Below are positions 4,431 through 60,000 of a stretch of DNA of 64,000 nt, piece after piece (the stretch's first letter is position 1; each line of letters begins with the position of its first letter). This stretch comes from Asterias amurensis. Lineage: Eukaryota > Echinodermata > Asteroidea > Forcipulatida > Asteriidae. Location: positions 4,032,501-4,096,500 of the forward strand of contig NC_092661.1 in the NCBI RefSeq assembly GCF_032118995.1. Reading direction: 5' to 3'. The position numbers and the translations under genes are program-made. The notes beneath the pieces are model-generated. The model was not told the origin of the DNA. It saw only the letters and a program-made list of their open reading frames with translations, and did not search any database.

Positions 4431-5807
4431 TTAAATACAATTGAGCCCATCTGGGTCCGAGCTGTTAGGGTTCACGCCCTTCGCTTGTGCCCACAGTCTA
4501 CACATAGAACTGTCTTTCAATGGCTGACTATCGGAGCATTTGAAGCCGGGGTGTAGACGGTTATCCCCCCGGTAGTGAACCATCCTCATCTCGGTCCGTG
4601 GGCAGAGAGTGATGGTGTCGCCTCCGAGTTTAACTCCGTGGATCTTAAAGAAATGCACGTTGGTGGGTCGCACCACCGCCTTGTCCCGGCCCATGTTGAC
4701 CGGCGTGGGTTTCCGGCTACTGTACTGATTCCGCTCAAAGACGCTCTCGTGTTGGTTCATATTGCGTTTCTTTGGCTGTTTGCGCCCGTGGCAGAAAAAC
4801 CAGTTCTGGATTCGCAGAGACCCGATTCTCGCCCCAACCGGGCTGTACCTACGAATCACATCGGATATTAAATTCATAGAAGGATCCATTGGTTGTAAGA
4901 ATTCATCCACGTCTATCTTTATCATCCATTCACTGCGATGGCGATTCCTCCATAGACAATCGTTCTCATGGGCTATCTGGACCTCCAAGTAGGTCTTGCG
5001 GGGCGAGTGGTCGTGCCCCCACGGGATGATCGTCAAAAATCCACCCTCGACGAATCTCCGCAAGCTCTGGCGGAGAGTGCTAGTAGCGGGGTTGGCGTTA
5101 TCGTAGATATACACATGTTCTACTCCGTACTTACGGTGGTACTCAAGCCACGGTGGTACTGCAGCATCCATGTTTTTCACCATAGTACACATGGATAAAT
5201 AGTTTGGTTTACTCTCACGCTGTCCGGTCTGGCAAACTGTGATGTTCTCGTAGGATAGAGTTGTGGTTGAGTTTAAGATACGTCTTAAAGTCATGTTGAA
5301 CTTCGGTACTCCGTAAAGAGCTTTCGGTAACGGGCATGTCATGATGATGATATACTGTGGGGTAGCACCGAACCTCTGAAAGTCCTCTAGCATTGGGTCA
5401 GTGAGGCTCATGAAAACCTCATCTCGTGTGCCTCTGAACTCACAGAGGAAAGCCTCCGTGAGCCACCTCTCAAACCAGAGGCGAACTCCAACCACAACAA
5501 CCTCGTTGGTGAACGGGTCTGCGAAGATTGAGTGTACAGTGGGCAGCTGAGGTGTCTCGAGTTTATCCTTGAGGTAGCAACTCGGATCGTCAAGAGGCGA
5601 TACCTCCTCGTGCTTCCCAACTCTGGTGACCCTCCCGGGAGGTTTCGTACCCGTGTAAAATATATACAAGGACACGGTGGTTATTTGGAAGACGATGATG
5701 ATAGAGCATGCTATCTCAAGTTTCTTGGATGAAAAGGTTGACTTCGATGGGGTGGTCTTACTACCCCTTGACGCTTTGAAGCTCACAGATCTCAAATGGT
5801 CATCCAT
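4431..5807 (-). CDS. GT92 family (DUF23) glycosyltransferase, type II membrane protein
   Basis: A single open frame of 458 codons with no visible intron. A short basic cytoplasmic tail (residues 1-30) is followed by one membrane anchor at about 31-53, then a luminal domain, the topology of Golgi glycosyltransferases. The GT92 hallmark region is at about 204-240: LSMCTMVKN, then a WLEYHRKYGV segment and HVYIYDNAN. A DVDEF motif at 299-303 is the likely metal/nucleotide-sugar site, and MVHYRG at 409-414 matches the family's conserved C-terminal motif. N-glycosylation sequons lie at 171, 179 and 188. In animals such as C. elegans, GT92 enzymes add galactose to core fucose of N-glycans; the acceptor of this member cannot be read from sequence. 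The start at 5,807 is chosen because it opens the cytoplasmic tail. An upstream pyrimidine tract leaves room for a 5' non-coding exon. Length fits the family and nothing appears truncated. Confidence 0.88.
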   Translation of the reverse strand: MDDHLRSVSFKASRGSKTTPSKSTFSSKKLEIACSIIIVFQITTVSLYIFYTGTKPPGRVTRVGKHEEVSPLDDPSCYLKDKLETPQLPTVHSIFADPFTNEVVVVGVRLWFERWLTEAFLCEFRGTRDEVFMSLTDPMLEDFQRFGATPQYIIIMTCPLPKALYGVPKFNMTLRRILNSTTTLSYENITVCQTGQRESKPNYLSMCTMVKNMDAAVPPWLEYHRKYGVEHVYIYDNANPATSTLRQSLRRFVEGGFLTIIPWGHDHSPRKTYLEVQIAHENDCLWRNRHRSEWMIKIDVDEFLQPMDPSMNLISDVIRRYSPVGARIGSLRIQNWFFCHGRKQPKKRNMNQHESVFERNQYSSRKPTPVNMGRDKAVVRPTNVHFFKIHGVKLGGDTITLCPRTEMRMVHYRGDNRLHPGFKCSDSQPLKDSSMCRLWAQAKGVNPNSSDPDGLNCI

Positions 5808-6660
5808 GGCAAAAAAAAAAAGAAATCAGCTAACAATAATTCTGAGTGTGTTTGTATCGATGCATCATAAGACCCAAAACTGGTTTGTTTACATGTATAG
5901 AGAACCTTCAAGATGACATTACATAGAAATCAATTATCTCATTGCTAGGAATTCAGAGTTTCACTTCATCGATTATTCAAGCATGGTGGCGTGGGAATAA
6001 TCGATTGTTCTTTTCTTGTTGTGGGTCGACTTGTCTCGAAATAGTGGTCCAGTTCATAGGTCTTAAGTTGGACTGTCCTGCTGTTGTTCAGTTGGTTTAT
6101 TTTCCCCACAACCGATGCAATTTATTACGTTTTATAACAACCACCAGAGTTCTGCAGTCAAAATTGTGTGACATAGATATCTTCCATACCTTATGCTTAT
6201 TCGGGTTCGTGTGATTGCTCCCTCCTGCAAATTTAAAGATCAGAAACCAAACATGTCCCAATTGTCCGTGCCGTAAATGACACTGCGCCATAACACCCAA
6301 TGGTCCAAAGATCAACCGTAAACACACATGTGCTTCGGCCCTGCTCAAAACGCACAAAATCAACAGTTACGTCCATTATTACAAAATCCAAGCACATGGT
6401 TATCACTAGTTACAATAATCACTAATCACGTTAAGATTTCGTCACCATTGGTAAATTATGGTATCATTATCCGTGCACTGTACACAGCGAAACACTCCAC
6501 ATGTATGCACCGAAGGCAGTCGCCCGCTCAGAAAAACTGTCTCTCTTCAGCGTTCATGCCCTGTATGTAAAATCCTAGCTGCATTGAAGGGGGCACTTCA
6601 AGTTCATTTTACGAGAACTGCGTCACTAGTAGATAATCCCAATTGCAAATGAAGAAGTAG
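5808..6660. other. Intergenic, no gene seen
   Basis: This is the upstream flank of the GT92 gene. It may hold that gene's promoter, but no clear TATA or other core element stands out next to the start codon. Open frames of 60-90 codons on both strands lack domain features and splice context. Confidence 0.5.
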
Positions 6661-11520: not shown

Positions 11521-11569
11521 GATTTGATTCAAATTATTTGTTTACAGCATGGGATAATGGTGGTATCAC

Positions 11570-11575
11570 AAACGG

Positions 11576-11610
<35 letters not shown>

Positions 11611-14400
11611 CTTAGTGGTCTTCCAGCGACCTTGTTGCATAACCAAAGCTTCGGGAACATGTTTGTTAGCTAGGTGTAAAGCCCCGCCTGATCTTAGGCT
11701 ATGAAGGCCGTATACCTTTGGATCGGTTACGCCTATGCGCTTAAGGGCCTCAAAAAACAACTCTCTGCACCTAGTGTAACTTAAGGGTCTATCGGCGCCA
11801 ATTTTGTACGCTTTTGTTCTGGACAAAAATTTAACAGGGGTGAACAGATATTTGTCTTGACCCAGATTGATTCCGGCAGCCTGTAAAAATCGGCGTAAAA
11901 TCGCAACTGGTGAGTAGGTGTCCAGTGAAAGAAAAGCAGTAAAACCATCCCTGAAAATGTCAGTTGTTGATTTTGGGATAAAGATTGAAATACCCTTAAT
12001 GTTTGGCAATTCAGAAAAGTGGGTAGCCTTCATACCTGCCATCTCATTGTGTCGAAAAAGGAGAGCATATTTGAGGGAGACATAACAAGCAGATCTAAGA
12101 TCTAAAAGCGAGGCATCAGGACCCGCGAACAATGGCTTTGACTTGGCTAAGGGAAATTGGCTGTTTTTGTGCGGGCGGATGATGGAGTTCCCGCCTACCG
12201 CTGACTATCACATGTTGAATGATGGGTGCATCAAGCGGGTTACTTTTGACATTAACCAATGAATGTAACCATCTCAATGAAGCAGCAGTAGAAATCAAAG
12301 GACTTTCAGAGTTTGAATGTGATTTTATATGTGACAAGTAAATTGCTAATACTTGTTCAGAAAAGGGGAGCACCAGAGGAATACCTTTCGATTCTAACCA
12401 GGATAAAAATTGACGACATTTATAGAAATAAGCCATAACCGTACCCTCGGATTTAGCAAACATTACATCTAGCAGCATTATTTCTTTCTGGGCTTGGAAT
12501 TGGAGGGGAAAATCGAGCCAAAATGGGTGGTTGTGGACTATCTGTATGCACAAAAAAAGAGAGGAAGAATTAAGAATGAAAATATGTGATACTCATCACT
12601 GTAAAAGAGTGAGAAGGGATTAAATTTGAACGAAATCTAGATATGTGGCTGCAACGCAGCCCTCGAAATCATTTGAACCAAGTAGGGAGTTGTGATTTTT
12701 GCCATGTTTAAGCGCGAGATAACCAACTTCAGTAATAAGGTCCTTGACCCAGGTACGGTATTGGGACCATAGTAAAGGCCAGAAGGGTTGCGAAGGCCAC
12801 CAGGGGAAAATTATTACGCCTTTACATTTGCAAAGATGCATGTGTTTAAGTGTTGATGCCACTAAGGCTACAGGAGGAACCAACAATGCACTCTCACCGT
12901 GCCAGTTCTGGGCAAAGGCGTTTACACCCGAAGAACCTGGGTTCCAAAAACAAGAATAAAATCGGGGCAGTTTAGTATTATAAAAAGTAGCGAAGCAGTC
13001 AATTGTGAATGGACCCCAGCGAGCATTGATAACAGAGAAAAACTTTTCTGAAAGGGACCAATCGTCCGTGTCGAGAATCCTACTGACAAAATCAGCTTGG
13101 TCATTTTTAGCCCTGGGTATCCACTCAACATCAATGCGAATAGAGTTGTTCAGACAAATATTGAAAATGTCAACAGCCAGATTGTTCAGGTTTGGTTTCA
13201 TACTTCCGGACTCGATAATTTTTGCTGCACACTGACTATCGGTAAGCAACTTCAACTCAGAGGCATGAATCAAAGGTAGGAAAGACAAGAGCGCAAAGCG
13301 AATCGCCTCGAGCTCGCGCCAAGTGGAACTTTGGACTGATTCTGTGTTAGTCCACAATTTGTGGGCTGTGTGAACCTCGTTACAGATTATAGCACCCGCA
13401 CCGGTGGAGCTGGCGTCTGAGCAAATTATCTTGTTAACAACTCGGTGAGCGAAAACAAAACGAACATTCAAAATTTTGGCATTAGCTCTCCAAAACTTAA
13501 CTTCAGAAAGACAGAAATCTGAACGACTGGAACGTTTTCATCAAAGGCTGCTGCGATTGTCATTTGACAGTGACGAGTCATTAATCTAGAAATACTACCA
13601 ACAACGGGGGACAACGAAATTTGGCCTACGAATGAATGCAAATCTCTTATTGTGAAAGACGTATGTTGCTGTAGAAGAAAATCAATAGATTTATTAATCT
13701 TAACGATCCTACGATCAAGAATCTTAAGTGTACCCTGTGCAGTGTCCCATCTCATACCCAACCAATCGATAGAATATACAGGGCTCCAAATACTCTTAGA
13801 AATGTTGTATACAAAACCTGCTTCTAAAAGATCAGAACGAATGTGGTTAGAGATGTTTAAGGCAATCTGGTTGTGTTTTGATGCTTCCTTAGGTCTAGGG
13901 ATGACAATGAAACCATCATCCAAGTAGAGAGCTATTAAAACTCCACATGACCTCCAGTGGGTGACCAAAGGTTTCAGAGCTTTGGTAAATATGTAAGGAG
14001 CGGATTTGAGCCCGAAAGGCAAAACCGTAAATTCGAAATGTCTGCGACTACCCCGTTAATAGACCAAGAAAACCCCAGGTAACATTGGGAGGCAGGGGCA
14101 ATGTCAAAATGATGGTAGCCCGATTTTAAATCGAATGTAACCATGAGAGCATTTTGTGACAGAAATTGAATACCCGATTTCCAGTCGTCCAATTTAAAGC
14201 GCGTTTTTGGTATGAATTTGTTGAGGACGCTGAGATCAAGAATAAGCCTATTTTTCTTGGAAGCTGAGCATGAGACAGATAAAGGGCTGTTCACGTAAGA
14301 AGGATGAGATTTTTCTATATTTTTTATATATTGGTACGCTTGAATGAATTAGACTATCAAACACAATGGTATGGGTGCATCTCTGACGCAAGGAAAGCAT
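11570..14400 (-). mobile_element. DIRS-like tyrosine-recombinase retroelement, broken fossil
   Basis: Read on the minus strand, the parts lie in DIRS order. A reverse transcriptase region (about 14,300-13,500) has a YLDD catalytic box. An RNase H-like region with a following DIRS-type extension spans about 13,450-12,650. A tyrosine recombinase spans about 12,550-11,610 and carries the family's H-x-LR-SGG signature. The combination of RT/RNase H with a tyrosine recombinase, and no integrase or protease, separates DIRS/Ngaro-type elements from LTR retrotransposons. It is broken, with roughly three or four breaks visible, and no terminal repeats are recognised. A long T-run abuts its downstream end. 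Coding parts remain easy to read, so the copy is probably not very old. Confidence 0.82.
11577..11608 (+). repeat. 32-base T run
   Basis: An uninterrupted oligo(T) that would be oligo(A) in the sense of the adjoining DIRS-like element. It could be a remnant of a polyadenylated RNA that was copied, or a simple slippage tract. Confidence 0.9.
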
Positions 14401-16651: not shown

Positions 16652-19600
16652 ATGTTCAGGCTCATCGCGAGAGGACTTGCCCGTTTGGTGGTCGCACCAG
16701 CCCGGGGTGCTTCACGAAGGAGCGGCGGCGGGCTAGCTGTTACCACCTACAGCAGGCCGATTTTGTGTGCTGACATTAATACTTCAAAGCACTCCAGTAG
16801 ATTGCACTCCAGCACCGCTGCTGATCCAAACCTACCAAGTCTATTGACAATAACGAACGGCGAAAAGGTAGTGTATGTTTATGAGATTTGAGGCATTAGC
16901 CATGTTTGAGATAATAAGTGGACACATTATTACACTATAAGGTTCGGGGTGGTTGATTGATTGATTGACTTTATTTGGATAACAACACAGGAAGAACATG
17001 GCAAAAGTACGTACCAAACAACAGGAGAAAGGAACTATGAAATATAAGATAAACCAAACTATCGCTCAAGATAGAAATACTGCACTAAATTATCCAAGGA
17101 GAACCGTCAATTCTGTTGTATATTCAGCAAAACCAAATAGTGCACTCCATATGGTGTCCATATCTCAAAAAGGTTATTTGCATGGTGAGGTATCAATATT
17201 TGGTTTGTGGTAACACCATAGAGCATGGAGGAATAAATCTAATTTATTCCTCCATGCATAGAGTAAGGACATTGTGGGTGTCTACTTGCCAGGTAGAGCT
17301 TGTTTTCTTAGAGAACTGTCTGCCATTATGTTTTACTATCGCGGGGTAGATTTTCTGGTTTCGGGAGACTTCTCATTTCTGAAAAGAAAAGTTGGCAGGA
17401 TACGGAAAATTTTCCCCAAATGGATATACAAATTATTGTATACTGTCAACAGCGGCAGGGCTTAACTTACCATGTAATTTGTTATGGTAATTGCTTTTTT
17501 CTATTGGTATTTACCCATGTGTGATCAAACCTTTGAAGCATGACAGACAATGCCTACTTGGTACCGTGCCAGTTAATCCACAAAGGGGCGTTCCATGAGT
17601 GTTCACCGCTAACTTTGCTCCATGATTGATAGCCAACGCCCAGGCTAGGCTATTGAATTGAATTGTTAGATTATTGTAAACCCAAACAGTCATTATAATG
17701 AGAGGTCAGTGGACAGATGTTTACACAAAGCAGGGTCCATGTTTTGCTAATAAAAACCTTTTTCATCCAACATACGCAAGCCTTGGTCATACAAATGCCT
17801 CAATTTATTGGTTATGCAAGAAAATAACGAAAGACTTTTAATAGCGAAACATGGATTTAACCCTGCTTTGTGTAAAAGTCCTTGCCCTATGGTGTAAACT
17901 TGTCTGTTTACTAAACAATGTGGCTTTGTCCTTGCTAGTTCTAACAAGTGCTGTTGACTTTAAAAAGATAGTGTGCACCATGGGGTGATGTTAATAGACT
18001 TCCCCCAGTCTCCATATTATAGAGTACAGTGTAAATATCTGAAATTAAAATGTGTGATATTGTTAGTGGGTTTGTGTATGTTTTGGTTAAATCTGTGAAC
18101 AGAAAACCTGATGCACTCAGTGACTGTTAGCACTTAATTTATTTTGTTGTTGAAGACACTATTGGTAATTTTTATTTTAATTTTATTTTTATTAGCTTAA
18201 CAACTTATTTCACCAGCAATAGAGAGCTGTTGATAGTATAAAACATTGCGAGAAAAGGCTCCCTCTGAAGTAACGTAGTTTTGAGAAAATAATTTCTCAC
18301 TAAGATATTTGATTTGATTCCGAGACCTCACCTCAGCTAAGGTCTCAAAATCAAGCATCTGAAAGCACACAACGTCGTGCGACAAGGGTGTTTTTTCTTC
18401 GATGACCAGCTTAGTCAAATTTTTCACAGATTTGTTATGTTATGCATATGCTGGGATACTTCAAGTGACAATTACCAAAGGTGCCGTGTGTCTTCAAGAT
18501 CTGGCAACACTCTAGAGATAAGATGGCGTTGTTAAATGGTAATGTGGCCTCGTTAAAGGGTTGGTTTTACTGCGGTATTCTAAAACATAATAATAACTTT
18601 AAAAACATGGCAAAACCACCCAAAATGGCCGCTCGATTGTTGCCATGTTAACGTCATTTGTTGCCATGAAGACGTCATTTTTGTTGACCGTGACCAACAT
18701 TTAAAACAAAACTTTGATACAGCCCCTTGTTCGTAAATACTGGACAAATGACGCCATCTATTGGTAAGTTCTGATAAGTGTCATGTTTTTATAATATAAA
18801 CCATACTATATAAACCGTCAAACAAAAGAATGAACAAAAAAGAGGTAGACCGCCAACATAAGGCTAGCCTTGATCAAGGCGCTACAGCCAGCCGCGACCT
18901 GCAAAATCCCAGACCCCATCACTGAATTCCGCCAGCGCACCCCATACATAACACAGTGCAATATTATACGTGTACAGCAGATGTACACACACATACCTAT
19001 TGTGTACATTACCAATTGTATGGTACACGTACGGTACATGAGTACTTTTTCTTCCTCCATGGTTCTAAGTGTTGTTAGAGCCACACGTACGAGGTTGAGA
19101 CACGACTGTACTCATGACTACGCTATACTGTTCTCGCAGTACAATGTACATGTATATACTGTTCTCGCAGTACAATGTACATGTATGGTCGTGTACATTC
19201 CACACGTACGAGGTTGAGACACGACTGTACTCATGACTACGCTATACTGTTCTCGCAGTACAATGTACATTATGTTCGTGTACATTCCACACGTACGAGG
19301 TTGAGACACGACTGTACTCATGACTACGCTATACTGTTCTCGCAGTACAATGTACATGTATGTTCGTGTACATTCCACACGTACGAGGTTGAGACACGAC
19401 TGTACTCATGACTACGCTATACTGTTCTCGCAGTACAATGTACATGTATGTTCGTGTACATTCCACACGTACGAGGTTGAGACACGACTGTACTCATGAC
19501 TACGCTATACTGTTCTCGCAGTACAATGTACATGTATGTTCGTGTACATTCCACACGTACGAGGTTGAGACACGACTGTACTCATGACTACGCTATACTG

Positions 19601-22600
19601 TTCTCGCAGTACAATGTACATGTATGGTCGTGTACATTCGTGTATGCACCGTGCACTGCATGCGTGTGACGCGAACCGGGCCGGGGAATGGTAATGTACA
19701 TTCGTGTATGCACTGCATGCGTGTGCCGCGAAACGGGCCGGGGAAACAGTATGTCAACAGTCTTGATCAAGGCTAACATAGGGCAAGTTAGCTCACAGTT
19801 GGTAGAGCGTTGGCATGTTGATCTGGAGGTCAATGGTTCGAGTCCCACTCTAGTCAATTTGTCTTTGTTCAACCCCAATTAATTACCCTAATTTCGATTA
19901 TGGTTCAATTGTTCTCCCCAGGTGAAGCCAACGTTCTCCAAGGCCGAACTAGAAAGCCGATTGTCCAAGCTCCGAACCTACATGGAGAATAACTCAATAG
20001 GTGGCGCCCTCTTCACATCCTATCACTCTATCAATTACTATTCTGATTTTCTGTACCTTGCGTTTGGACGTCCGTATGGTCTCGTCGTCACCCCTGAGAA
20101 GGTTGTTATCATTGCAGCGCTAATTGACTATGGACAGCCTACCAGGTACGTCTCATTCACATTGAGTGTAGAGCCCCTGTGAGAGCTGCGAGATCAACCC
20201 CGGGACTTACACGGTGCAGAAGAAACTACAGTAACACCCCGTTTCAGACAGGTGCTCCAGAGTCGCACCGAACTAAATTCTGATTTAAGTACATGCAAGG
20301 TTCCAATGGAAATCGAAAGCTCTAATGTTGCAGTCGTTCGGACTGACTTTGGCGTCTTGGTTTCAGACGTCGATCTTGTCATGAGATGAACCTACAGTAA
20401 ATGTTATGTTAAGTTCGCCCATCTGAAACCAAAACTTATTTTGGTCGACCTAGAGTCGCTCTTAATCTATTTGGTGCGCCTGTCTGAAACGGGTGTTACG
20501 CTTCTCAAAGTTATAAAACAAAGATATTATACAAAAATAACATGGTTTGAGGGTGACAGTCGATATTATCTCCGCGAGGAAGTTGACAAACTAGTTCCCG
20601 AGGCGAAGCCGAGGGAACTAGTTTGTCAACTTCCAATACCGAGGGGAGCTACAATACTCGACTATTTTAGTCACACGAAAGAAACCATGTTATATTTGTT
20701 TTACTATACTTCATACATATTCAGTTACGGTTGCAAATAGGAGCAAGAGGAAATGACGACTGCAATAAAATGCATTCTGGATAATTTTGTTGATGAACCC
20801 TTTTTAAATTTTAATTTCTGCACATTATGAACACAAAAAAAATTACTCTGAAACTGACGGTCATGAAAATTATGCTTAAATATTTATAAGAAGCATTCAT
20901 TTGGTAACGTTATTACCGGACGTCGTTTTCACCAACCTCTTCTTAACTTAGGATTAATCTTAGGATATGACTTAGGACTTAGGACGAGTCCCAACCTTGC
21001 TCTGTAAGATGAATCCTGATTGACTAATTGACTAGTTACTCGTCCTCACTCGAGATAGAATTAATCCTAGCGTTGCGTGAAATCGGCTGCGGTAAATGCT
21101 TCTCAGACTGTATATTCATGTACGGATAATATTCATCAATGTATTCGCTCCGGAGTTTCGGCGAAATCTCGTATACGCGACCAACTTTTGAAATGAAATT
21201 TTCGCAGGATAATTTTATTGAGTATGTACAACACTTCATGTGTGTATGATTAAAACACTTGAACGTTCCCAAAGACCAATGGTACACATTTCCTTTAAAC
21301 CATCATTGCCAGTTGATATCTTTTTCATGGTTCAAATTTTCCAGGAGGAATCAATGTGGAGATACAGTCATCTACACCGACTGGCAAAGCGGGAATTATT
21401 GGAGAGCTGTTGAACAGGAACTCGGGCACGTCAAAGGGAAGGTATGTTCAAACAAAACAGAATATCAGTTTCAATAGCAAACTGTGCGCAGGCGCCATGT
21501 TGAAAACATAATGTCAACGCATTATTTTAAGGAAACCGAATAAAAGTTTTAAAATGAGTTAAGTTCCAACGCAGACGCCATAGTCTCATGCATGCAGATG
21601 CATGCCTATAATAGAATGCATTTATATAACGCTATACAAAACAGAGCGCCTATACAAACAAAGGGAGGGCAACACAAGAACAAAAGCAATACAAAAACGG
21701 ACAAGCGACAAGCCAGGAAGATAAACAAAGAGGGGAGCAACTTAGGAAAGGTCTGGGAACAATGTGCCTGGAAGAAAGGTTTAAACACAGCCAATGACGT
21801 AAAGACTTGTTCCATAAGCGCGGTGCAGCAATTGCGAAGTCTGTGTCCCCGACTTTCATTTTTGGATCTAGGAATGCATGTTGACTATTAACATTACGGC
21901 CTTGTCAAACGGGGAATTTCCACAGGCAACTTGACTGCAGTTCATGTATACATGACTACTTTGGTGCCTCGATCAGATTTATTTTGTAAACAATGTGTTA
22001 CGATACCCAAGAAAATAATGTAAGAACATTCAAATGTGAATGCCCTTTCTTCTTGGAGATTGCCTTGGGGAACTGGTTGCCTGTAAGATGTCTCGTGTGA
22101 CATGGGCCAACTTTCACTATTTTCTCTCGACTATAGGTAGGATGTGAGTTCGACCATATTCCTCTACAAGACTTCAAGAACTTCCAAAATGCCGTCCCGG
22201 GCGCTCAGGTGATCGACATTGCTGAACCCAGCATGTTTATGCGAATGATCAAATCACCAGAGGAGATCGCACTGATCAGAGAGGGCGCTCGGGTCGGTGA
22301 CATCGGCGGGGACGTTGGGCGCGCGGTGTTGGCTGCAGGTGTTCCCGAGTACGAGGTTGCAATGGCGGCACAGGGGGCGATGGTTAGGGAGATTGCGAAG
22401 ACGTATCCACATACGGAACTGAGAGACAGTGAGTAATAAAGACAAGTTTGATCTGAAGTGTGCAATGAGTCCAATGAGAGACCTTTAAGACGCTTGGTGG
22501 CAGCAGACTTACCAGGTAAAATCCATTGTTCTCAGCAATATACGCATGCTCAAAACTACACCTACAATGGAAGTTTAGTTTAGCTTCAAAGTCTCCCATT

Positions 22601-24256
22601 GGAATAAAGACTGCCATTTGATAGCTGTCGGTGAATATTTTGGCATTGGTGGGGTAAGATCTATAAAACAACATGGCAGACTGGGGCTAAGTTTTGTACG
22701 AGTCGTTGACTCAATATCGGGTTCATTATAGTATTTAATAACTTAGACCATCATCCGGTTGGTTTTACCGCCACTAACGAAGATTCCCGTTTTTGTCTGT
22801 TACGCTAGCATGGTCTTGGGTTCAAGGTGGTATAAACACCGACGGTGCTCATAACTCTGTCACAACCAGACCTTTTGTGAGTGGAGACATTGTGAGCCTC
22901 AACATGTTTCCAATGATCAGTGGGTGAGTTGCAATCTCTAGACCCCTAGTCTTGGTCCAAGACGTCACTATCTCATACTCGTAACGTAATGTAAACTAGA
23001 CAGAGATAGCTCGACAGAGGGCGCGCTTTTTGGCAGCCAGCATACACTTTTTTTGTTGCACGCAGTGGTTTGAAGATCAGCAGAAGGAGCCTGAAGCCGG
23101 AGCCGGAGACCGTGCCGGGCTAGACTTGACTCAAGTTCCGATCCCGTGCCATCGCCAGAAAATTGTTGTTTTGTGGTGCACTGCACTGCCAAACCTGTTC
23201 CGCACGCGGGGCCACATTTTGACGGCGAGGGCGCACTGTTATATGCGGCTTGTCTGCTTGTTAGCGCGATATGCTAAATAGGGACCTCTCACATGATAAC
23301 GGTATTTTAAATCAAGTCTTAAGCCGAGGTTTTAGTAAAGTCAGCCAACCTCACTGTTTGAATTTGTAAAATGGTTTGATGAATTACCACTAATCCCCTT
23401 TTTTGTTTTCAAAGTGGCTACATATTAATTTGTTTATCCCAGTTACTATACAGCATTGGAGCGTACCATGTTCATCGACCATGCCACAGACGAGCAACTC
23501 CGTCTCTGGGAGGTCAACTGCGAGGTGCACCGACGGGGCATGGAGCTCATCAAACCCGGTGTAAAATGCAAGGACGTCGCGCTGGAGCTCAATGAGATCT
23601 ACCGGAAGTACGATCTGTTGAAGTATCGTACTTTCGGCTATGGACATTCCTTCGGGATAATGTGCCATTATTACGGACGGGAGGCAGGTAAAGAAATGAT
23701 CTAATTATTAAAACAAAAACAAAGATAGTTTTACACATCTGTTTGTGTTGAAAGGATGCCGCATATTAGTGAGCTTAATCGTTGTAGGTCGCAAGCCCAG
23801 GGAAAGAGGTCTATAAGCAAAGGTGCTTCCGTGATAGTGTTCCGTGTTCTTTTACTTTTTCTATTTCCAATCCTAGTACACGGTATCGACCGCTTATTGT
23901 CACATCCGGAGGACAATGCGCTTAGGGTTTTAGTAGGACATCAGTGCCTTGACTGGGACTTGAATTCACATTCTGCCGACCAGAAACACCATAGTTTGTT
24001 TTGCTTTGTCAAGAAACGTCACAAATGTTGAGTGTATTTTTTTTTTATCATTGTAGGTTTGGAGTTTCGTGAGGATATTGAAACGGTCCTTGAGCCCAAC
24101 ATGGTTGTCTCGATGGAACCGATGATAACCATTCCAGAGGGACAGCCTGGAGCGGGAGGCTACAGGGAACACAACATCCTAGTCGTAAACGAGACTGGAG
24201 CGGAGAATATCACACACTTCCCGTTCGGTCCTGAGCACAACATTGTGAAGAATTAG
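16652..24256 (+). CDS. Creatinase (creatine amidinohydrolase), seven exons, predicted mitochondrial
   Basis: Exons: 16,652-16,867; 19,922-20,145; 21,345-21,441; 22,137-22,428; 22,809-22,923; 23,443-23,687; 24,057-24,256. All have GT/AG borders and joined phases, giving 462 residues. From about residue 69 the protein tracks bacterial creatinase (Pseudomonas, about 404 residues) with only one inferred single-residue shift, to a near-identical C-terminus. The substrate contacts of that enzyme (Phe62, Arg64, His232, Glu262, Arg335, Glu358) correspond to Phe120, Arg122, His291, Glu321, Arg394 and Glu417, all conserved. The expected reaction is creatine + water to sarcosine + urea. The fold is the pita-bread fold shared with M24 aminopeptidases, but the creatinase-specific residues argue against a peptidase. 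The first 65 or so residues are Arg-rich with no acidic residue in the first 39, typical of a mitochondrial presequence. The start at 16,652 is the first ATG of that segment. The gene is fully spliced, so any bacterial origin is old. Confidence 0.93.
17224..17257. repeat. Perfect hairpin, 15-bp arms
   Basis: CATGGAGGAATAAAT and its complement are separated by three bases. Possibly the fused ends of a tiny MITE. Confidence 0.7.
18150..18498 (+). mobile_element. MITE family A copy 2, diverged
   Basis: The ends read GACACTATTGGTAATT and ATTACCAAAGGTGCC. The interior keeps GGCTCCCTCTGAAGTAACGTA and GCATCTGAAAGCACAC. Flanking TTAA has decayed to TTGA/TCAA. Confidence 0.7.
18864..19776 (+). mobile_element. 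Family H element with internal minisatellite expansion
   Basis: It starts CTAGCCTTGATCAAGGCGC and ends GTCTTGATCAAGGCTA, so the termini are inverted. Compared with the copy at 26,784 (about 340 bp), the middle has been expanded by tandem duplication of an 88-bp segment. Non-coding. Confidence 0.7.
19082..19640 (+). repeat. 88-bp minisatellite, about six units
   Basis: CACACGTACGAGGTTGAGAC recurs at 19,082, 19,201, 19,288, 19,376, 19,464 and 19,552, at 87-88 bp spacing after a longer first unit. Units are almost identical, so the expansion or homogenisation is recent. Each unit contains CTATACTGTTCTCGCAGTAC and ATGTACATGTATG. Confidence 0.93.
19781..19882 (+). mobile_element. tRNA-like SINE (family E)
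   Basis: An A-box-like TTAGCTCACAGTTGGTAGAG and B-box GGTTCGAGTCCC are followed by CACTCTAGTCAA and the shared tail TTTGTTCAACCCC. The cloverleaf is imperfect, with an extra base in the D arm. Relatives lie at 56,099 and 56,401. Its tail ends just upstream of the creatinase exon 2 acceptor, so it may supply part of the polypyrimidine and branch-point region. Confidence 0.6.
20229..20511. mobile_element. MITE with GTTTCAGACAGG ends (family J)
   Basis: TAACACCCCGTTTCAGACAG at the left and CTGTCTGAAACGGGTGTTA at the right form inverted ends about 20-25 bp long. A second inner pair (TGGTTTCAGACGTCGA and ATCTGAAACCAAAA) is visible. It lies in creatinase intron 2 and is non-coding. Confidence 0.65.
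20579..20634. repeat. Perfect hairpin with 22-bp arms
   Basis: GGAAGTTGACAAACTAGTTC at 20,579 pairs without mismatch with the segment ending near 20,634. The loop CGAGGCGAAGCCG is itself partly self-complementary. It lies in creatinase intron 2. Exact arms suggest recent origin or active maintenance. Confidence 0.85.
20921..21068. mobile_element. MITE family D (CTAACTTAGGAC repeats), degraded copy
   Basis: CTTAACTTAGGATTAATCTTAGG and GGACGAGTCCCAACCTTGC match other copies at 34,108, 44,467, 45,158, 55,006 and 57,140. The ends here are worn. Confidence 0.55.
22466..22645. mobile_element. MITE family I, partial copy
   Basis: GGTGGCAGCAGACTTACCAG followed by CCATTGTTCTCAG matches the arms of the elements at 37,206 and 45,614. 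The right arm is not recognisable. It lies in creatinase intron 4. Confidence 0.5.
23925..24000 (-). mobile_element. Fragment of SINE-like family L
   Basis: On the minus strand GGTGTTTCTGGTCGGCAGAA and the following TTCAAGTCCCAGTCAAGGC resemble the head of the repeat at 55,322. Short and diverged. Confidence 0.35.
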
Positions 24257-24350
24257 GAAAACTGCCCAAGTGTGGATGAGACTGGAGCGGAGAAAACCAC
24301 ACGCTGCCCATTCGCTCCTGAGCACAACATCGTGAAGAATTAGGAATTCT
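24190..24350 (+). repeat. Tandem duplication of the creatinase gene tail
   Basis: The last 22 or so codons plus the stop of exon 7 (24,190-24,268) are repeated immediately downstream (24,270-24,350). Both start GAGACTGGAGCGGAGAA and contain CACAACAT.GTGAAGAATTAG followed by a GGAA..CTGCCCA motif. The second copy lies after the stop codon and is therefore 3' UTR or non-coding. Confidence 0.9.
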
Positions 24351-24559
24351 GCCCATCTTGTGGATTTGATAAATTATGACGAACTTTATAATTAATTTAA
24401 TCACAGCATACAAAAGAAGATTATTCACGGAGGCAACTAATGCGATTGCCTCGATGCCCCTGTCCATAGCCTTGGTGCCATTGAAATGCCCAGTGGAAAT
24501 TTACAATCTCCTTATATAGGGTGCCTCAGCAGAACATGCCTCGGTGCCCTTGCCCTTTA

Positions 24560-25088: not shown

Positions 25089-25137
25089 TTTATTAATGTA
25101 GGCCTACTTTATTTATTAATGTAGGCCTACTTTATTT
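25089..25137 (+). repeat. 23-bp tandem duplication
   Basis: ATTAATGTAGGCCTACTTTA occurs twice back to back just before the LINE fragment. Each unit includes the palindrome TAGGCCTA. Confidence 0.85.
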
Positions 25138-25145
25138 TGTGATTA

Positions 25146-25724
25146 CTTCAAATACCTTGGATCCTGGATCAACTCCAGTGAAAAAGACCTGAAGATACGA
25201 AAAGGACAGGCGTGGTCCGTGCTTCACAGCATGAAAAAGGTATGGTCATCAACGCTGAGTGCCCGGCTGAAAAGATCACTATTTGTCGCAACAGTGGAGT
25301 CAGTGCTACAATATGGAGCTGAGACCTGGACCCTCACCACCAGTATGGAGAAGTCTCTGGATGGTTGCTACACCAGGATGCTGCGTATGGCCCTAAACAT
25401 CCCCTGGCAGGACCACATGAGAAACTCCAACCTGTGTGCTGGTTGGCCAAAGGCCACAGAGAAGATCCGTGAACGCCGACTCAAGCTCGCTGGGCACTGT
25501 GTCCGCCACTCGGAGCTTGCCGCTTGCCCAACCATCCTGTGGGAGCCCACCCAAGGCAAGGCCTCGCGTGGGAGAAGATGTCTCTCCTTTGTAGACACAC
25601 TAAAACGAGACACCGGCTTGACCATTGCTGAGGAACTTCGCTCCTGCATGCTGGACCGGAACATCTGGAGAAAAATCACTGGGCAGGCTCGAGCTTCTAG
25701 ATGGCGCTCGACATGATGATGATG
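25146..25724 (+). mobile_element. 5'-truncated LINE with 12-bp target-site duplication
   Basis: The fragment encodes the C-terminal end of a non-LTR reverse transcriptase as one clean frame to a stop at 25,714-25,716. Motifs include FKYLGSWI, SVLQYGAETWTL, RMLRMALNIPW and RRLKLAGHCVRH. It ends in a short ATGATGATGATGATT run, a 3' microsatellite tail as in RTE-like and related LINEs. ATTTTGTGATTA occurs exactly at 25,134-25,145 and 25,725-25,736, a 12-bp target-site duplication. The intact remaining frame and exact duplication mean a recent insertion. It cannot move on its own. Confidence 0.88.
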
Positions 25725-57000: not shown

Positions 57001-60000
57001 GGGTCCTTAATCTTTGGCCAATTCGCTGACTTTGCTGGACGGAAGAAGTCGTTCACACTGGCAATCCTTCTCCAGGTAAGTGTGAGACTCTCTGTGGAGT
57101 GCAGGGTGGATCAATGTTGGTAGTTTCTTAAAGACCCGGCCGTCGATTTCACAAAACTCTTCCTAACTTAGGACTTATTTTAGGACTTAGGACGAGTCCC
57201 AACCCTGCACTGTAGCCTGCATACATTAAAATTAATCCTAAGTTAGGACGAGTTACTCGTTTTAACTCGAGATAAGACGAGTCCTTACTCTTTGTGAAAT
57301 CGACTTACATGGTTTTAAAATAATGATGGAAAGCTTCCCTTAAAGACACTGGACACTATTGGTAATTGCCAAAGACCAGTCTTCTCACTTGGTGTATCTC
57401 AACATGCATAAAATAACAAACATGTGAAAATTGAGCTCAACTGGTCGTCTAAGTTGCGAGATAATAATGACAGAAAAAAAAAATTGCTGATTACCCAGTA
57501 AGTTTTTATTCGAACAACTCTTTTGAGTAGCTACCAGTAGTGTCCAGTGCGTTTTTGGTGAAATTTTGCAGCTTGCGATGTACCTCAAAGTATCATTTTG
57601 TGTTATTGTTATTCCCCAGGTTGCTGCCGGAATTGGGGCGTCGTTCGTCCCCAACTTCGCCCTTTTCTGTTTCATGCAATTCCTGCTCGGTGTCTCTGCA
57701 TCTGGAACATTTGTTGTTGCCATAGTGATAGGTGAATGTTTTTTTAAGCCCGGTTAGCATACTTCACGCGAATTGCGAAAGGGAGCGAATTGCCTTAATT
57801 GTCATTATTTGAAAACTTAATTTCACCCACTGCGTCTCTTTGAACTCCGTACCTGTTGCATAATTTCCTCCACCCTACAATCTAAACTGTTTGAAGAGTA
57901 AAATAAATTCCCACCTTAAAGGCAGTGGACACAATTGGTAATTACTCAAAATAATTATTAGAATAGAAAAATACTTGGTCATTAATGGGGCGCTGTTAAA
58001 AGTATAAAACATTGCGAGAAACGGCTACCTCTGAAGTAACGTTAGTTTTCGAGAAAGATAATTTTCCCCGAATTTGATTTTGAGACATATTAGATTTTGA
58101 GGTCTTGAAATCAAGCATCTGAAAGCACACAAGGTCGTGTGACATGGGTGTTTTTTCTTCTTTCATTATCATCCCGCAACTTCGACAATCAATTTGAGAT
58201 CAAATTTTCACAGGTTTTTTATGCTTATGTTGAGACACAACAAGTGAGAAGACTGGTCTTTGACAATCACCAATAGCGTCCAGTGTCTTTAAGCCCCTTG
58301 AGTTATTTTCACTTAACATAATGTTTTATTCTTGTAGCTCCTTAATACACAGTGAATTTTAGCCTCGTTTGGGAATAAACTTGCATCGAACGAAGTTTAA
58401 AATAAAAAAAAGGGCCAAGTGGTTTGGAGCTAGCAAGAGCATAACAAAGTGACTGGAGAGACTTGGCTAGAGACTACGTCTCTGTGTATTCTCCTCTCTG
58501 CTGCGCTTAATGCTTGGTGTGCTATTCTCTTTTCCAGCCACTGAGATGGTAGGCAAGAGCCAGCGGGCCACTGCAGGAATAATCATCGATTACTTCTACA
58601 CCATTGGGTACATGTCTATGGCGTTGATAGCGTGGAGACTGCGGGACTGGCACACTATCGAGTTGGCGATATCCATCCCACCGATTATATTCCTGGCTTA
58701 TTATTTGTAAGTTTGCCGGTATGATTATGAACTGCAGAGAGAACGTATAGAAGCGATGTGATCTATGATGACAGGTTTACAACAGAGCCACCAAGCCTGG
58801 ACTTCCTGCAGGCACGATTTGTACACAGCCTAATGGAAGAAATCATAAAATCGTATATTTTATGGAGATTGCACTGTCTAATTCTGATATGATGAAAGGG
58901 GGCACATCTCAGAACTTGTCCAGCTTTCACTTATAACTCTTGGATTTATCTGGAAAATATGACACAAAGTATCAACTTTCCCATATGGCCAGTGCAGTAT
59001 CTTGCCTGCCAGACTAGCCAAAGAATGTACAGGGTCACAGCACTTGTTGTAAACAAAGTTCACATGGTCTATACATTGCAGTGATCACATGCCTCGCAAC
59101 AAGGTAAAATAGTACAAGATTCCTTGAGACGTGACTACCAACCCCCCCCCCCCCCCCCGTAAAAAAGGCCTCACTTATTTTGAGGCACTGTAAATTATAG
59201 GTAAAAACTCAAAATAATCCTTAGCATAAAAACTTACTAGGTATAAAGATCCGGCTCCCTCTAAAGTTACGTAGTGTTTGTTGAAGTAATTCTCACTCAA
59301 ATGAGATGCCTTAGCTGACGTTTTCAATTAAAAAAACTGAAAGTACACAACATGTGCGACAAGGGTGTTTTTCTTCCATTGTTTTCTCGGAACTCCGACG
59401 ACCAATTCAGCTCATATTGTCACAGGTTTGGTTACGCATTTATGTTAAGATACGCCAAGTGAAAAGACTGTTCTTTGACAATTACTAAAAATGTCCAGAG
59501 CCTTTAACAGCGGTGGGTAGTCGAATACACCACTTTAATGTTGATGTTCTTGGCGTGTGTTTTTTTAGTTTGTTTATTCTTGTATTGCACTTCAGTATCG
59601 TACCAGAGTCTCCAAGATGGTTGTTATCTAAAAGCAAGACGGCAGAAGTAGAGAAGATCGTCAGAAAGGCGGCAAAAATAAACAAAGTGAAGATACCAGA
59701 AAGTGTGTTCCGTGATCATTCTTCACAAACTGGAGAAAAGGTAAACACTCCCATATCATTATCTTGTCAAGTAATTTTTCTGTTTGACGATGCCGAGAAT
59801 CTTAAAATATAACTTACTTATAATGGTAAGATCATACTTTGATATGCGTTAATTAAAGGAACGTTACAGAATTGGTAAGACACAAGAAGATTGGTGAAGA
59901 TCACAGATTTATTTCAAACTTACGCGGTCTAATGATGATGAAATCAGAAAACATCCCTTGAAATATTTCTGTCTGAAATTTCATTTTGATGAGAAATAAA

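Follow-up and report, generated by a model that had tools for sequence, protein, structure and literature searches.

A nuclear gene of the starfish Asterias amurensis probably encodes a working creatinase (EC 3.5.3.3) of bacterial ancestry, which most likely acts in the mitochondrion. The gene lies at positions 16652-24256 (forward strand) of the window, by which we mean the whole 64,000-nucleotide stretch of DNA analysed here (C14:4032501-4096500), and by the sequence tests described below it is a genuine creatinase gene of an animal chromosome, and it adds an unexpected host to an enzyme family already known. Bacterial creatinase converts creatine into sarcosine and urea; animals, as far as we are aware, are taught to lose creatine only through its spontaneous conversion to creatinine. 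A full-text search of open-licence PMC papers returned no paper on a creatinase from a starfish or any other echinoderm, and among the papers of that collection that pair creatinase with metazoa or invertebrates no report of an animal creatinase was found in the passages available; the mentions of creatinase in those passages concerned symbionts in two sponge papers and, in the beetle work, a yeast for which no creatinase was found, and in two further papers the word stands only in the title of a reference and only as an example of an EC number, respectively. Genome annotation pipelines may already label such genes creatinase-like.

Gene structure and chromosomal setting

Joining of the seven exons by script gave a coding sequence of 1389 nucleotides and a product of 462 residues with no internal stop codon, and all six introns run from GT to AG. 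The start, end, exons, introns and protein length proposed in an earlier sequence-only reading of this DNA are confirmed by the joined exons, the open frame and the intron borders. Exon 1 (16652-16867) opens with an ATG at 16652, ahead of which the open stretch has no other ATG in frame, and encodes a presequence-like leader of 60 codons (16652-16831; residues 1 to about 60) and the first residues of the creatinase body (61-72), the frame leading up to a GT donor. After an intron of 3054 bp (16868-19921), exon 2 (19922-20145) encodes part of the Creatinase_N domain, including F120 and R122; exon 3 (21345-21441) follows, and within exon 4 (22137-22428) the Creatinase_N domain ends and the M24 fold begins. 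Exon 5 (22809-22923) carries the catalytic histidine, H291, and N308, which replaces a metal-ligand aspartate; exon 6 (23443-23687) carries A319, E321, H383 and R394, and exon 7 (24057-24256) carries E417, H435 and the stop codon. All seven exons are on the forward strand. An 87-bp unit made up of the last coding bases, the stop codon and the start of the 3' flank is duplicated in tandem on the same strand (24191-24355; 1.9 copies, 88% matches), the repeat falling in the 3' flank.

Because homology with the solved bacterial creatinases begins within exon 1, at residue 61 for 1chm, 67 for 7yto and 68 for 1kp0, and because N69, G70 and K72 of this exon are invariant across seven aligned rows (the starfish protein and six bacterial ones), exon 1 belongs to the gene. 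The sequence-only reading had the protein follow the bacterial enzyme from near residue 69; the match does run to near full length, and its start moves to one of the three residues just given.

The assembly comprises 491,506,623 bases in 23 contigs, of which 22 are large and one is mitochondrial, and the creatinase gene lies 4.05 Mb into the 20.3 Mb of C14. The published description of the A. amurensis assembly gives 491.53 Mb in 22 chromosomes of 13.43 to 38.00 Mb (PMC10625585). The contig C1 has 38,009,675 bases. The mitochondrial contig, C23 (16,427 bases), carries COX1, in which translation table 9 (echinoderm and flatworm mitochondria) reads nine AAA codons as Asn, eight AGA codons as Ser and 18 ATA codons as Ile; this reading presumably restores the known COX1 motifs, and tables 2 and 5 appear to fit less well. 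Two COX1-like nuclear stretches on C5 (C5:658874-660214 and 675294-676634), 16,420 bases apart, nearly match the score of the copy on C23; they are either mitochondrial DNA that was inserted in tandem or an error of the assembly.

A search of the genome with the whole protein found no second copy: its matches, at least seven from eight candidates, are all exons of the present gene on C14. For a repeat lying 250-420 bases 5' of the ATG, 399 candidates yielded 40 scored matches spread over 17 contigs, the query itself being one of the 40, and several partial copies of this genome-wide repeat, 77-96% alike, lie in intron 1. The same intron holds an 88-bp tandem array (19155-19639; 5.5 copies, 98% alike), the unit of which overlaps the genome-wide repeat.

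The survey of neighbouring genes covered 47 open stretches out of the 499 in the 64-kb window that have 50 codons or more. On the reverse strand at 11569-14055, some 2.6 kb before the creatinase gene begins, separate frames match RVT_1, then RVT_3 together with a below-cut-off Dam methyltransferase, and a below-cut-off Phage_integrase; the order of these frames resembles that of a DIRS-type retroelement. Further off on that strand, a 464-codon frame at 4434-5825 has a glycosyltransferase family 92 domain. Two of the 47 frames match Sugar_tr, one of them, at 59489-59809 (forward strand), being borderline. Just 3' of the creatinase gene, a 198-codon frame (25120-25713, forward strand) looks by eye like the tail of a LINE reverse transcriptase and has no Pfam match.

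Family assignment and active site

When the product was searched against PDB chains, the three solved bacterial creatinases scored 554, 553 and 508 bits (E values of 1.6e-165 for 7yto and 4.2e-165 for 1chm), and the next match, a proline dipeptidase, scored 76 bits. Pfam recognized the Creatinase_N (59.8 bits) and Peptidase_M24 (103.8 bits) domains; among the NCBIfam models 11 matched and none reached its cut-off; the best, an archaeal PepQ model, gave 77.3 bits where 630 are required. Over the body of the protein, identity to bacterial creatinases is 59-68% (87 rows from 84 loci). Among the best 80 of 581 stretches, the closest by identity are creatinases of Halomonas and Marinobacterium (68% for L049 and 66% each for L045 and L047), with matches spanning residues 60-461, yet these are not the sister group of the starfish protein in the trees described below. 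In plasmid records the product has 949 matches, 124 of them at 60-80% identity. Across 60 rows spread down the plasmid ranking, the places covering at least 80% of the query are either 58-65% or less than 28% identical, with none between, a gap that leaves aside a few short partial places at 54-70%. By genus, 311 of the 949 matching plasmid records are from Klebsiella and 103 from Acinetobacter, counts that include the weaker M24 matches.

In a tree of 94 rows (the starfish protein, 87 bacterial creatinases and six other M24 proteins, several of whose branches are saturated, with lengths up to 10), the starfish protein falls on the creatinase side with a support of 91/95. The description of the product as a true creatinase in the sequence-only reading is upheld by the scores of 508-554 bits, against 76 for the next match, and by the 59-68% body identity to the 87 rows; the outcome that the same reading had named as counting against it, a place among Xaa-Pro dipeptidases, is not the one that the tree gives.

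The residues F120, R122, H291, E321, R394 and E417 are invariant in an alignment with six bacterial rows and, counted along the alignment with 1chm, correspond to F62, R64, H232, E262, R335 and E358 of Pseudomonas putida creatinase; the roles of Phe62, Arg64, His232, Glu262, Arg335 and Glu358 in contacting the substrate were reportedly described by Coll et al. in 1990. These six contacts, as already proposed from the sequence, are kept, each being found in 87 of 87 bacterial rows, and the same holds for four further positions, N308, A319, H383 and H435, giving identity at all 10 positions tested. The metal ligands of Xaa-Pro dipeptidases (M24B) are Asp, Asp, His, Glu and Glu, and in these columns the starfish protein has N308, A319, H383, E417 and H435. 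Of the outgroup, the prolidase-like row L125 reads Asp, Asp, His, Glu and a gap, and the other five rows are without the full set. We take the presence of Asn and Ala in place of the aspartates of the metallopeptidases to be the pattern of the metal-free creatinases.

It is very improbable that the product is an ordinary Xaa-Pro peptidase, or an ectoine hydrolase of the same fold, that has been mistaken for a creatinase. Pfam gives Creatinase_N and Peptidase_M24 alone, domains which, from general knowledge, are common to Xaa-Pro dipeptidase, aminopeptidase P and their relatives, and would therefore suit a peptidase equally well, but the proline dipeptidase (76 bits) and the ectoine hydrolase DoeA (39 bits) are far from the 554 bits of the best creatinase in the PDB search, Asn and Ala occupy two of the metal-ligand positions, and the tree is also against it. 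DoeA and the DMSP lyase DddP are likewise understood to belong to the same fold family, but their NCBIfam models match the product weakly, far under the cut-offs (TIGR02993, 53.5 bits against 613; NF043017, 26.6 bits against 600). We therefore rejected the Xaa-Pro peptidase, DoeA and DddP identities on both scores and site residues. Bacterial contamination, or a chimera of the assembly, is less credible still: high similarity to bacteria is all that speaks for it, and the gene has six GT-AG introns, lies 4.05 Mb inside a 20.3-Mb chromosome contig and has a genome-wide host repeat both just 5' of it and within intron 1. Contamination, which the sequence-only reading had also discounted, is excluded for practical purposes.

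The creatinase identity leaves room for differences from the bacterial enzymes. The starfish protein matches the solved creatinases (1chm, 7yto and 1kp0) over almost the full bacterial length and at every site position tested, but its predicted activity belongs to a protein with a 60-residue leader, encoded by a gene with six introns on an animal chromosome, and 11 of its positions depart from the state (a letter or, in one case, a gap) that 95% or more of the 87 bacterial rows share. Among these departures are V281 in place of Phe and G283 in place of Ser, shortly before the segment of the catalytic H291. Judged from the alignment, the 11 departures could tune or alter the activity.

Predicted mitochondrial import

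Mitochondrial presequences are N-termini that are rich in arginine, free of acidic residues and amphipathic, and the starfish leader has all of these features. Seven Arg occur among its residues 1-40, where Lys, Asp and Glu are absent, and the best 18-residue hydrophobic moment of the leader, 0.71, was equalled in only eight of 2000 sequences made by shuffling its 60 residues. These values bear out the Arg-rich leader of the sequence-only reading. Ahead of the shared body, none of the six aligned bacterial rows has more than about 15 residues, compared with 60 in the starfish protein. The composition of the leader suggests that the presequence encoded by exon 1 most likely directs the protein to mitochondria.

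Creatine metabolism genes

Exons of guanidino kinases (PF00217) gave 12 matches in the genome. Three guanidino-kinase domains lie in a single frame of 1113 codons on C2 (L020-L022; C2:15880659-15883529), a build that we take to be that of the flagellar creatine kinase of sea urchins. When one of these domains was compared with single-domain PDB chains, creatine kinases were closest, at 347 bits, against 268 for the arginine kinase 3ju5, which we take to be that of a sea cucumber; two-domain chains scored 398 and 357 bits with the same domain, values that sum over domains. The creatinase contig, C14, also has a creatine-kinase-like gene some 211 kb further downstream; one exon of this kinase gene scored 81 bits with creatine kinase and 53.5 with 3ju5. 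On C1 there is an arginine-kinase-like gene, and here part of one exon scored 85 bits with 3ju5 and 60 with the best creatine kinase. Another locus on C2 (L023; C2:14662116-14662766) has a single-domain guanidino kinase in an open frame of 481 codons, the N-terminus of which is hydrophobic and contains Cys, so that the protein might be secreted or membrane-anchored.

For the fate of the products, we note that FAO_M is a domain of sarcosine and dimethylglycine dehydrogenases; FAO_M exons occur at four places in the genome, and one of them, searched against the PDB, gave no match. Creatininase (PF02633) and the urease alpha subunit (PF00449) had no match in the genome in an exon-by-exon search of a kind that can miss genes, controls for the two models being positive in six and four of 14 genomes, respectively. 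No gene of creatine synthesis was found either: the model PF02274 (now named ADI) had no genome match, in a search that is weak when made exon by exon and with a model that may not cover glycine amidinotransferase.

The surroundings of the bacterial homologues were read from five plasmid loci, and in four of these the creatinase homologue lies near creatininase, sarcosine oxidase or urease genes. In one locus, genes for serine hydroxymethyltransferase, serine ammonia-lyase and sarcosine oxidase lie downstream of the homologue; two of the five loci have a creatininase gene beside or near it, and in the Acinetobacter johnsonii locus a urease gene is near it. One locus has no creatininase, sarcosine oxidase, serine hydroxymethyltransferase or urease neighbour. 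The creatininase, sarcosine oxidase and urease neighbours support creatine as the substrate of the family.

Discussion

For the tree rows we took the five plasmid loci and, out of 581 confirmed stretches, the 80 that ranked best (79 loci), a sample that leans towards close relatives. In the 94-row tree the starfish protein joins one Rhodospirillaceae MAG (81/78) inside a weakly supported set (83/40); in the tree of 88 rows built without the outgroup it joins a different alphaproteobacterial MAG (72/84), and the least inclusive set with good support around it takes in 39 of the 88 rows (95/86). Because these weak placements lie beside different MAGs in the two trees, we name no donor. A creatinase-bearing MAG of the Chloroflexi was also followed up, and among 201 genomes from its phylum one was positive, namely that same genome. 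Viral and phage origins were considered and rejected: 62 peptide-pattern matches in viral_contigs include none that encodes a relative, and among the 20 matching records of a phage collection the best, a 53.5% match, lies at the end of an unannotated 8.3-kb record from human faeces named 'Bacteriophage sp.', with the next four of the best five at 23-25%.

On this sequence comparison a bacterial ancestry of the starfish creatinase is likely, and gene transfer from bacteria is the likeliest origin. An origin that is compatible with a working creatinase too, as an old animal or eukaryotic gene retained in few lineages with no transfer into the echinoderm line, is a serious though less favoured possibility; the sequence-only reading had likewise allowed for both origins. 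The six introns, together with a coding-sequence GC3 (0.579) like that of two guanidino-kinase genes of the same genome (0.526-0.626), point to long residence in the genome, which would suit such an old gene, as would the lack of firm nesting in the tree: holding all 87 bacterial rows together cost 1.29 log units (AU p = 0.031, for a group chosen after seeing the tree). However, the unconstrained tree sets the starfish protein among the bacterial rows, and the 39-row set holds it there in the tree without the outgroup. A further question is that of the substrate. The protein might be an enzyme of the creatinase fold acting on another guanidino or N-methyl compound, creatine not being the main one; we consider this unlikely. 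In both trees no creatinase row has a longer end branch than the starfish protein (0.83 and 0.92), which would fit a changed substrate, as would the 11 departures from near-invariant bacterial positions, and the presence of an arginine-kinase-like gene means that several guanidino compounds may occur in the animal. Nevertheless, the six substrate contacts and four other site positions are fully kept, the body is 59-68% identical to the bacterial rows, and the creatine-kinase-like genes suggest that creatine is present.

For the favoured reading, a creatinase that acts on creatine, we propose the following scheme. The presequence from exon 1 would send the enzyme to the mitochondria, where it would hydrolyse creatine, giving sarcosine and urea. 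No metal ion would take part, and the mechanism would be the histidine-based one of bacterial creatinase. The sarcosine could be oxidized by a mitochondrial flavin dehydrogenase and, because no urease was found, the urea would leave and be excreted. Whether all of these steps operate together as a mitochondrial pathway of creatine degradation, in which a creatinase of bacterial origin, redirected through a newly gained first exon, supplies sarcosine for oxidation in the mitochondrion and so disposes of phosphagen in an animal cell, we would put at about even chances from the sequences.

The starfish may thus possess an enzymatic means of breaking down creatine, one that would probably operate in the mitochondria, a prediction that can be tested directly by a simple assay. 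If true, it would mean an enzymatic control of creatine content, with carbon recovered as sarcosine and urea made outside the usual routes, and would clearly exemplify how a catabolic enzyme of bacteria has joined the mitochondrial metabolism of an animal. A creatine-removing enzyme might also bear on the choice between creatine and arginine as phosphagen in different echinoderm tissues, given that a sea urchin is reported to make both phosphocreatine and phosphoarginine (PMC6429109).
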